Assembly (NCBI GenBank): GCA_021827995.1
Contig: JAKATK010000001.1
Span: 62,001-126,000, forward strand
Direction: 5' to 3'
Length of the DNA: 64,000 nucleotides
DNA from: Microcaldota archaeon
Lineage (GTDB): Archaea > Micrarchaeota > Micrarchaeia > Micrarchaeales > Micrarchaeaceae
Numbering within the stretch: the stretch's first letter is position 1; every line of letters begins with the position of its first letter. The notes under the pieces are model-generated. The model had not been told where the DNA came from. It did not search any database and worked only from the letters and a program-made list of their open reading frames with translations. This document shows positions 9,751-59,865 of this stretch, piece after piece. The position numbers and the translations under genes are program-made.

Positions 9751-10422
9751 ATGAAGAACATAGTCATCTCCCTGGGCGGCAGTGTAGTGAGCGCCGACGG
9801 CGGCATCGACACCAAATTCCTCGAAGGCCTGTCCAAGCTTCTCGGCCAAAGGCTCAGGGACAACAGATTCGCGATAACGTGCGGCGGTGGCGGCACTAGC
9901 AAGCTCTATGTGGAGGCCGCGCGCAAGTTCGGCGCATCAGAATACGCGAAGGACGAGATAGCGATGGCTACCACGTGGGCCAACGCACTCCTTGTCAAGG
10001 CCGCGCTCGGCCCGGACCGGTGCTCCTTCGCAGGTAGCGTCGCAGAGGCATCAAACATGATAAAGGACACTCCCATAGTGGTGCTCGGCGGCATAATGCC
10101 CGGCATAACCACCGATACGGTCGCGGTCCTGGCTGCCGAATCCATGGGCGCAAAGCTGCTCGTCAACATAAGCAGGGTCGGCGGCATATACGACCAGGCG
10201 AACAAGCGGAAAGTGTTCCAGAGCCTGAACTACAACAAGCTGGTAAGCATGGCGATATCGAAGGACCCGCGCAGGGCCAGGTCCAACTTCATATTCGATG
10301 TCATAGCGAGCAAGCTGGCCGCGAGGTCCGGCATCGAGCTGCACTTCATAGGCACTGACCTGCACGACCTGGGGTGCGTCCTCGACGGTGAGCGCCACAC
10401 AGGCACAGTCGTCAAGGCATAG
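9751..10422 (+). CDS. pyrH: UMP kinase (archaeal type)
   Basis: A 223-residue amino-acid-kinase-fold protein that phosphorylates UMP to UDP. Visible motifs are SLGGS at the N-terminus, CGGGGTS for the nucleotide-binding loop, and GGIMPGITTDTVAVL, which closely follows the archaeal PyrH pattern. It begins at the base after the stop of the upstream RNase gene, with GGTGAT just before the ATG. Related folds such as isopentenyl phosphate kinase are less likely because of the TTD motif and length. Confidence 0.82.
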   Translation: MKNIVISLGGSVVSADGGIDTKFLEGLSKLLGQRLRDNRFAITCGGGGTSKLYVEAARKFGASEYAKDEIAMATTWANALLVKAALGPDRCSFAGSVAEASNMIKDTPIVVLGGIMPGITTDTVAVLAAESMGAKLLVNISRVGGIYDQANKRKVFQSLNYNKLVSMAISKDPRRARSNFIFDVIASKLAARSGIELHFIGTDLHDLGCVLDGERHTGTVVKA

Positions 10423-10448: not shown

Positions 10449-10500
10449 GATCAGAGACTCTCTTTCTCATCACGGATCAGAAATACCTCGTCTCATCACG
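10449..10500 (-). ncRNA. C/D box sRNA, double guide, targeting 23S rRNA
   Basis: Read 5'-3' on the minus strand: box C GTGATGA, guide GACGAGGTATTT, box D' CTGA, spacer TCC, box C' GTGATGA, guide GAAAGAGAGTCT, box D CTGA. All four boxes are perfect consensus and both guides are 12 nt, the archaeal standard. Guide 1 pairs with 11 consecutive bases of the 23S gene at 58936-58946. Guide 2 pairs with 9 consecutive bases at 58917-58925. By the N+5 rule the predicted 2'-O-methyl sites are A58939 and U58920. A TATA element at 10519-10530 stands about 25 bases upstream of box C. On the plus strand the gene appears as a 26-base tandem repeat, GATCAGA-N10-CTCATCACG, twice. Confidence 0.9.
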
Positions 10501-10518: not shown

Positions 10519-10530
10519 CGTTATTTATAA
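10519..10530 (-). promoter_or_regulatory. TATA box of the 23S-guiding C/D sRNA
   Basis: On the minus strand the sequence reads ATTTATAAATAAC, centred about 25 bases before the box C of the sRNA at 10500. Position and orientation fit an archaeal promoter for that sRNA. It overlaps the left end of the IS605-like remnant. Confidence 0.6.
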
Positions 10531-10640
10531 ATGTGAGCGGTGAAACCAGCAATTCTGTGTGTGATGATGGCGAACCGCAGGACTGCAACGCGCACAAATC
10601 ACCGCCTTGAGCCCGCGACTTCAGTCGTGATAGGACGTCA
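10525..10640 (+). mobile_element. IS605/TnpB-like remnant, internally deleted
   Basis: About 115 bases resembling only the two ends of the remnants at 52660-53249 and 56362-56770. The left part has the region encoding M-x-A-N-R-R-T, the TnpB-like N-terminus (GCGAACCGCAG). It joins directly to the right-end hairpin GCCCGCGACTTCAGTCGT followed by GGACGTCA. Everything between is missing, so this is a solo-ends or MITE-like relic. It lies between the C/D sRNA and the 5S gene. Confidence 0.55.
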
Positions 10641-10705: not shown

Positions 10706-10823
10706 TGCCAAACGGTAATAGGGGCGGGGCAACGCCCGATCCCATTCCGAACTCGGAAGCTAAGCCTGCCTACGATACGTGTGTACTGCCTTAACGGTGG
10801 GAAAGCGTATTGCTGTTTGGCAT
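10706..10823 (+). rRNA. rrf: 5S ribosomal RNA
   Basis: About 118 bases. The conserved core CCCATTCCGAACTCGGAAG followed by CTAAGCCTGCC is unmistakable. The 5' TGCCAAAC pairs with the 3' GTTTGGCA to form helix I. A T-run (10823-10827) follows directly and can act as terminator. It has its own TATA box and is about 46 kb from the 23S gene. Confidence 0.95.
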
Positions 10824-30894: not shown

Positions 30895-30960
30895 GATGAG
30901 TGATGAGTGAGGTGATCACTGAGCCTAACGGCAGTGAAGATGGTTGACTTGGGCTGAGCC
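30895..30960 (+). ncRNA. C/D box sRNA upstream of alaS
   Basis: Box C GTGATGA is at 30900-30906, a 12-nt guide at 30907-30918, box D' CTGA at 30919-30922. Box C' GTGAAGA (one change from consensus) is at 30934-30940, a 13-nt guide at 30941-30953 and box D CTGA at 30954-30957. Box spacing is the archaeal standard and a TATA box is at the right distance. I find no convincing match to the 23S gene here. The first guide contains GAGGTGATC, complementary to the universal 16S 3' tail. It lies in the alaS leader and may be processed from that transcript. Confidence 0.7.
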
Positions 30961-56999: not shown

Positions 57000-57017
57000 G
57001 GAGAAGAGACTTGCAAA
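57000..57017 (+). other. 5' arm of 23S processing stem
   Basis: GGAGAAGAGACTTGCAAA, perfectly complementary to 59854-59871. The stem joins the two ends of the pre-23S transcript for processing. Confidence 0.8.
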
Positions 57018-59865
57018 CTGATCAAACCACCTAGGGGATGGCTTGGCTATAGCCGCGATGAAGGTCGTGGCAAGCTGCGATAAGCCCGGGGTAGCCGCAA
57101 GTCGGGCTTTGAACCCGGGATGACCGAATTGTGCTAGCAATGGCACGCGAACGCGGGGAATTGAAATATCTTAGTACCCGCAGGAGAAGAAAGAGCATAT
57201 CGATGCGGCGAGTAATGCGAATGAAAGCCGCACAGGGCGCACCGAATCCTGCCTTGCAAAAGGCGTGGAGATGTGGCGTGGCGTTTGACCCAGGACACGA
57301 GCCGAAGGCGTTGGAAAGCGCCGTCATAGAGAGTGACAGCCTCGTAGGCGAAGTGCGATGGGCATTGCCACATGCGAGTAACACCGCCCGAGTACGCGGT
57401 GCGAAGATGGGGGCATCAAACCCTAACCCTAAATATAGGCTATAGACCGATAGCGAACAAGTACCGCGAGGGAAAGCTGAAAAGAACCCACACGCGTGGG
57501 GCTGAAAAGATCTGAAACTAGGTGGTGAAATGAAGGCAGAGCGCGGAAGGAATGAAGCGCGCAGAAGCCAGGACTCGAGAGGGTCCGGCGATGCGCGATG
57601 ATCAGTGTTCTGCCATTCTTCTTGAAGCAAGAGCCAGGGAGTGTATGGGCGTGGCGAGCCGAAAGGCGAAGCGAAAGCGATAGCGCGCAGGCAACGAGGC
57701 GCGAGGTACGAAAGTGCCTTAGTCACCACCATACGACCCGAAGCCGCTGTGATCTACGCGTGCCCAGGACGAAGCTAGGCTAACGCCTGGTGGAGGTCCG
57801 CCACCTGTCATGGCATGTCCTGTTGGGTGAGGTACGGGTAGCGGCGATATACCACTCGAACGCGGCAATAGCGGGTCCCCTCTGAAGTATCTTTAGGATA
57901 GCTCCAGGTGAGCTTGCACGCGCGGTAGAGCTACCGAATAGGGTGAAAGGAGTCGAAAGGCTCCACACTCTTATCGAACTCCGAATGCGCGTGCTGCGTA
58001 GACCCTGGGAGTCGGCGAGGCTGGGTAAGCTAGCCCCGCGAGACTACAAAGACAGTGACCATGGTTAAGGCCCCCAAATCCTAGTTGAGTGTAACGAAGG
58101 TGGGGAGCGCCTTAGACAGCTGGGAGGTAGGCTCAGAAGCAGCCATCCTTCAAAAAACGCGTAATAGCGTACCAGTTGAGGCGTCCCTTGCCGAAAATAT
58201 ACGGGGCTAAACTAGGTGCCGAGACCATGGAGGTCGCAAGACCTGGTAAGAGGGCGTGCGGCGCGGCTGGAAGTGTGTCCGAAAGGACGCATGGACCGCG
58301 TCGCAGGGAAAATCCTGGTGTTAGTAACAGCATATATGGGTGAGAATCCCATACACCTTAAGCACACGGGTTTCTTCGCAACGCTCGTCAGCGGAGATTT
58401 AGGCGGTCCTAAGCCGCAGGCCAATCACCTTGCGGCAAAAGGGAAGCTGGTCAATATTCCAGCCCCTGACATGTAGGCGCGGCGACGCAAGGCGGATTTC
58501 TGACGCATGGGGATAGCCCCGAAAGACGGTGCAAAGGGCTGCGGAGTCTCGTTATGAGGGGAGGCAGCTAAATGAACCAATGGGGTGAATTCCTGTGCCA
58601 GTGAAAAGGGAATCCGCAACGATCATGTCAGTCCGTACCTAGAACTAGTACAAGTGTTGCTGGCTGAAAAGGCCGAGGTGTGACGGGATAACCGTGGTTA
58701 GGGAAATCGGCAAATTAGTGGCGTAAGTTTTCGACAAGCCATGTCTGCGCCTGGTAAGCGCAGATGTCACTAGCAAGGGGACAACGACTGTTTATCAAAA
58801 ACACAACTCACCGCAAAGCCGGAAGGCTTAGTACAGTGGGTGACGCCTGCTCACCGCCAGTACGTGAACGCCCTTTTCAAGGGGAATAAGCGCTGGCAAA
58901 GAGCGGGAGTAACTCTGACTCTCTTGAGGTAGCGTAATACCTCGTCACTTAATAGGTGACTTGCATGAAGGGCGTAACGATTGTCCCACTGTCCCAACCA
59001 CGGACCTGGTGAACTCACTGCGCGGTGAATATGCCGCGATCTCTCAGTGGGAAATGAAGTCTCCATGAAGCTTGACTATAGCCTGTAGTTGTTGCACGAT
59101 GGGCCATGCATAGCGTAAGCGGGAGCGTCGAAGCGGGGGCTGCGGCCCCCGTGGAGCGACAATGTAACACCGCTCTTGGTCTGTCGTGCGGCTAACGCGA
59201 AAGCGGACAGCTGCAGGTGGATAGTTAGACTGGACGGTTGCTTTCGATAAGGAAACGAAAGTGGCCAATGCTCTGCTTAGGCGGGTTGGGAACCCGCCGT
59301 TAAGCGAAAAGGCAAATGCAGGGCTGACTGTATGCCGAAAAGCGTGGCATGCAGACCGGAAACGGGGGCTTAAGGAACGTCGGTAGCTCTTTTGATGGGG
59401 CTCCGAGCTGTCAAACAAGTTACTCTGGAGGTAACCGATTCGTCGCGGGTGAGCGCCCACAGCGACCCCGCGGATTGATACATCGATATGGGCTTTGGTT
59501 ATCCTGGTGGTGCACAAGCTGCCAAGGGTTGGACTGCTCGTCCATTAAAAACCAACACGAGCTGAGTTCAGTACGTCGCGAGACAGTACGGTAATATCTA
59601 CTGGGAGTGTCAGTGCCGGAGGATAAGACCCCCTTAATACGAGAGGAACGGGGGATCGGCGCCTCTAGTGGACCGGTTGTGAACGCATTGCCGGGTAGCC
59701 ACGCGCCAAACGGATAAGTCCTGAAAGCATCTAAGGACGAAGCTGTACCCGAAACGAGGCACTAGGGCGGTCGCAATAGACGACTTTGATAGGACGGGTG
59801 CGTAAACAGGAAGCTCACGCGACCTGCGAACATACCGTTACTAAAGCCTAACTTTTGCAAGTCTC
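57005..59865 (+). rRNA. rrl: 23S ribosomal RNA
   Basis: About 2.86 kb; ends approximate. Conserved blocks are seen from end to end: GGATGGCTTGGC and GGCAAGCTGCGATAAGCC near the 5' end, the helix 69-71 region GGTAGCGTAATACC at 58928-58941, peptidyl-transferase sequences GGGTTGGACTGCTCGTC near 59525, and the sarcin-ricin loop AGTACGAGAGGA-like TAATACGAGAGGAACGGG at 59635. An 18-bp perfect stem (57000-57017 with 59854-59871) closes it as the processing helix. No intron is apparent. ORFs read across it are artefacts. Confidence 0.96.

Follow-up and report, generated by a model that had tools for sequence, protein, structure and literature searches.

Does the short stretch at positions 10,449 to 10,500 of a 64,000-nucleotide DNA window from a Microcaldota archaeon (contig JAKATK010000001.1) encode a C/D box sRNA that guides 2'-O-methylation of the 23S rRNA gene in the same window, and if so, what does selection keep in it? 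Taken as a whole, the locus is best explained as a standalone gene for an archaeal dual-guide C/D box sRNA of about 50 nt, predicted to direct methylation of 23S A1940 and U1921 (E. coli numbering), and we hold this reading with high confidence. It gives a precise and testable map of ribosome modification for a DPANN archaeon.

Anatomy of the locus and its promoter

On the minus strand, positions 10499 to 10451 read GTGATGA-GACGAGGTATTT-CTGA-TCC-GTGATGA-GAAAGAGAGTCT-CTGA. Box C (GTGATGA, 10493-10499) is followed by the D' guide GACGAGGTATTT (10481-10492), box D' (CTGA, 10477-10480), a 3-nt D'-C' spacer TCC (10474-10476), which is also the usual spacer length in relatives, box C' (GTGATGA, 10467-10473), the D guide GAAAGAGAGTCT (10455-10466) and box D (CTGA, 10451-10454). 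The four perfect boxes and two 12-nt guides reported in the initial annotation are thus confirmed and its span of 10449-10500 is right, the boxes proper occupying 10451-10499. Boxes C (RUGAUGA), D' (CUGA), C' (RUGAUGA) and D (CUGA) come in the order of an archaeal C/D sRNA, and guides of about 10-12 nt, complementary to rRNA and paired at N+5, lie directly 5' of D' and D.

A TATA box had also been claimed at the right distance, and a TATA-like element TTTATAAATA is indeed found at 10522-10531 on the minus strand, 32-23 nt 5' of box C. Among 88 distinct upstream regions of relatives, counted relative to box C, the A+T content is highest (0.82-0.91) at -29 to -27, and 32 of the 88 carry a TATA-like hexamer between -38 and -22, with clustering at -33 to -28; the count is based on a short hexamer list, by which only about one third of the relatives are positive. 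The A+T peak and the hexamers support the view that the sRNA would have its own promoter, while no clear terminator is seen 3' of box D.

The boxes are short words and low-complexity matches do arise, so that the array might in principle be a set of chance box-like words in an intergenic region. On the contrary, a scan of both strands of the window finds the strict four-box pattern a single time, none of 60 simulated first-order Markov windows contains it, and the array is kept across two families with compensatory changes. A chance array is hence ruled out by simulation, conservation and covariation, and we regard its probability as negligible. A loose box match at 30900-30957 was set aside, its anatomy being different from that of the sRNA.

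Predicted targets in 23S rRNA

The 23S rRNA gene holding both targets lies on the plus strand at 57008-59863 (Rfam RF02540, 2246 bits). The D' guide has 11 consecutive complementary bases at 58936-58946, at the junction of helices 70 and 71, and the D guide has 9 at 58917-58925, in the 3' strand of helix 69, exactly as first annotated. It is established for archaeal C/D sRNPs that the methylated ribose is the one paired five bases upstream of D or D' (the N+5 rule), by which the predicted 2'-O-methylated nucleotides are A58939 for the D' guide and U58920 for the D guide. The earlier hand alignment had placed these two bases at about E. coli 1940 and 1921, and the positions come out the same when the gene is globally aligned with E. 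coli rrlH. A random 12-mer has a probability of 0.00135 of showing an 11-bp complementary run in the 23S of the window, and a second guide matching within about 30 bases cuts the odds roughly a further thousandfold, a figure that is estimated rather than computed.

The initial annotation took the two neighbouring targets of one sRNA as strong internal validation. The two matches, 10 nt apart, are real, but both targets of one archaeal sRNA mostly lie within 100 nt of each other (PMC7994747), so the proximity found here is the norm and not special. In addition, predicted methylation sites are known to be concentrated in helices 68-71 of 23S rRNA (PMC4644070). As for the genomic arrangement of the rRNA genes, a 5S gene is detected by Rfam at 10708-10821, and the 23S (57008-59863), 5S (10708-10821) and 16S (G000:C20:183650-185136) genes are unlinked, being tens of kb apart on one contig.

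Conservation across Micrarchaeota

The sRNA gene is real and phylogenetically conserved. In a DNA search (40 relatives; 28 genomes), matches fall mainly at query positions 42-92, which are the RNA itself, while the flanks diverge. Over the genomes of 84,980 species, the C-guide-D' pattern matches 99 stretches, 92 of which also have C'-guide-D and are full C/D RNAs. The named records among these are nearly all Micrarchaeota, the exceptions by record title being some Marsarchaeota or Mancarchaeum and one unclassified bacterial bin. Five pattern matches without C'/D behave like chance matches and serve as built-in controls; the three of them with titles shown are bacterial. A sequence profile made from 31 of the pattern-matched C/D RNAs matches 175 of the phylum's 301 genomes (the phylum being Micrarchaeota to judge by the named records), strongly in the family of the window and its sister family and weakly further out. 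The gene is present in the cultured Ca. Micrarchaeum harzensis A_DKE (L100). One record titled just "bacterium" (LSA4.bin48; L126) has a full micrarchaeal sRNA, and is probably a misclassified or contaminated bin.

This pattern of conservation bears on the neighbouring gene. The locus sits about 30 nt past the stop of a convergent plus-strand gene (9751-10422), which from reading its translation we take to be isopentenyl-phosphate-kinase-like, and being antisense to it the RNA could act as a regulatory antisense RNA or a 3' UTR element of that gene rather than as an rRNA guide. We find this very improbable: the flanking DNA is not co-conserved, and the guides follow the rRNA and not the neighbouring gene.

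Coevolution of guides and targets

The guides were compared with their targets in 60 genomes for which the sRNA and the 23S are both available. In 57 of the 60 the register of the D' guide fits 1940; each of these 57 has pairs at 1937 and 1939-1944, and 55 have one at 1938 as well. In one genome (G247), an rRNA change C1944U is offset by a G to A change in the guide, which makes a compensatory pair. At position 1936, adjoining D', most genomes have a T-T mismatch, and the distal positions 1945-1947 drift, both as expected if a guide duplex is formed. In contrast to the fast guide turnover reported in other archaea, the micrarchaeal D' guide is unusually invariant across two families.

In 48 genomes the register of the D guide fits either 1921 (31 genomes) or 1920 (17), and the guide base opposite 1921 is paired in every one of them, by T-A in 44 and C-G in 4. 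The four C-G cases belong to other families, in which helix 69 reads GACCCTC and not GACTCTC, corresponding to U-to-C and A-to-G exchanges. G037, whose target has become C, has a D guide that pairs over 9 bp with the other (5') strand of helix 69 and puts N+5 at 1910. Some relatives that keep the D' guide have a D guide without a clear rRNA match, and the deviant D guides (AAAAACTTCGTGT, TATAAGTCCT and others) mostly give no match over 7-8 bases in the 16S and 23S of the window's genome. With D' pairing near-invariant and the D guide variable or retargeted, the function of D' is stable and that of D labile. On the whole, boxes are conserved and guides change with their targets, as in archaeal C/D sRNAs, and the guide-target coevolution in this sRNA family is unusually clear. 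As a separate observation, in one genus (G155, G157; L257, L258) the D guide is now of the TATTACGC/ATATACGC type, and that of G157 overlaps the D' target, with N+5 at E. coli 1935.

One-base shifts of box D and the predicted target, U1921 or C1920

The second target predicted in the initial annotation, U1921, stands for the window's genome, but the exact nucleotide is not conserved, as relatives slide to C1920 or retarget. In relatives such as G008, G011, G028 and A_DKE, two bases instead of one separate AGAGAGTC from box D, and in A_DKE (L100) the shifted guide and box read GAAGAGAGTCTG-CTGA. The extra base makes C1920, not U1921, the N+5 base, so that by this rule the sRNAs of such relatives would methylate 1920. 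At least five changes of register between 1920 and 1921 are required on the 23S tree, which has 29 rows, 27 of them labelled 1920 or 1921. C1920 in helix 69 is the ribose methylated in bacteria by TlyA, the 23S Cm1920 methyltransferase (PMC12805891), and the relatives with a shifted D box would aim at this same ribose. TlyA differs in being a protein-only enzyme, whereas in the sRNA system fibrillarin would be directed to its site by a guide RNA, and the window's own predicted target is 1921.

We tentatively propose, at somewhat less than even weight, that the helix 69 duplex is conserved while the methylated ribose is not, the target alternating between U1921 and C1920 through repeated D-box slips, that several Micrarchaeota guide Cm1920 by RNA as TlyA does by protein, and that the pairing rather than the exact base is selected. 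If true, an intersubunit bridge helix would be modified convergently by an RNA guide and by a bacterial protein enzyme. The slipping of the D box also bears on what selection keeps, the methylation site or the pairing.

A further step would be to make chaperoning the conserved role, with the C/D sRNA holding helices 69-71 at two sites and the exact methylated nucleotide being secondary. Such roles have been proposed for archaeal C/D sRNAs (PMC7994747), and the D-guide duplex is kept despite the one-base slide of box D. Against this, none of the 57 genomes scored shows a slide of the D' register away from 1940, which is expected if a fixed methylated base is selected, and the fixed D' guide together with the boxes suggests that methylation is kept; we therefore judge a mainly chaperoning role unlikely.

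Machinery and proposed mechanism

The window's genome has the protein genes expected beside an archaeal C/D sRNA, namely fibrillarin (248 bits), a Nop-domain protein of the Nop5 type (162 bits) and two L7Ae-family proteins (92 and 56 bits), which are not told apart. As a dual-guide methylation RNA acting on the 23S of the window, the sRNA has thus had its testable predictions borne out in boxes, RNA-limited conservation, coevolution, promoter-like signal at a constant distance in relatives, and machinery genes.

In the mechanism we propose, the sRNA would probably be transcribed from its own minus-strand TATA promoter; L7Ae would bind the C/D and C'/D' motifs, and Nop5 and fibrillarin would join, as the presence of their genes suggests. 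The two guides would then pair with adjacent 23S segments, and the riboses of A1940 and U1921 would be methylated according to N+5. Since the guides stand in the reverse order of their targets (the D' guide, nearer the 5' end, pairs with the target nearer the 3' end), the pairing is antiparallel and collinear and both guides can bind at once, so simultaneous binding across the 10-nt rRNA gap may occur. The sRNA may also keep helices 69-71 open during folding.

Relation to known C/D sRNAs

The RNA resembles the archaeal dual-guide C/D box sRNAs of Sulfolobus, Pyrococcus, Pyrobaculum and Nanoarchaeum (PMC4644070, PMC7994747, PMC3491384) in its boxes, guide lengths, short D'-C' spacer, two nearby rRNA targets and choice of 23S helices 68-71. 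It differs from those sets in having its own guide sequences, and is found here only in Micrarchaeota. Rfam gives no C/D RNA at the locus at the gathering threshold. The search with C/D sRNA models, which had been suggested as a check, does return a best match to RF01139 (sR2) with 34.3 bits and an E-value of 8.5e-6, below the gathering score of 42. With sR2 the RNA shares the box layout but not the guides, so that it is the boxes which account for the match, and with a score under the threshold and other guides the RNA does not fall within RF01139. A literature search on Micrarchaeota, covering both C/D sRNAs and fibrillarin, brought up no account of such RNAs in the group. As every archaeal C/D feature tested is present, with no Rfam family at threshold and no such description found, we regard it as a new family of a known RNA class: the class is well known, and this family appears to be undescribed.

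A second C/D sRNA with a tRNA target

The window's genome contains only one other strict C-D'-C' match, a second C/D sRNA (L162; G000:C21:29077-29127, minus strand) that reads GTGATGA TCCTGTACT CTGA GCATTGCT GTGATGA GGATCTTGAGTG CTGA and is present in 24 of the 26 genomes searched, its own included. Its D guide GGATCTTGAGTG has 11 bases complementary to the anticodon arm of a tRNA-Leu(CAA)-like sequence (G000:C10), and N+5 points to C34 as the predicted target; tRNA C34 belongs to a known class of targets of archaeal sRNAs (PMC7994747). The tRNA-Leu(CAA)-like sequence itself (L302 around 1501, minus strand; G000:C10:31861) is missed by ARAGORN, apparently owing to an insert in the T-loop, GTTCAAA-CGAGCGAAC-AAATC, which is possibly a non-canonical intron.
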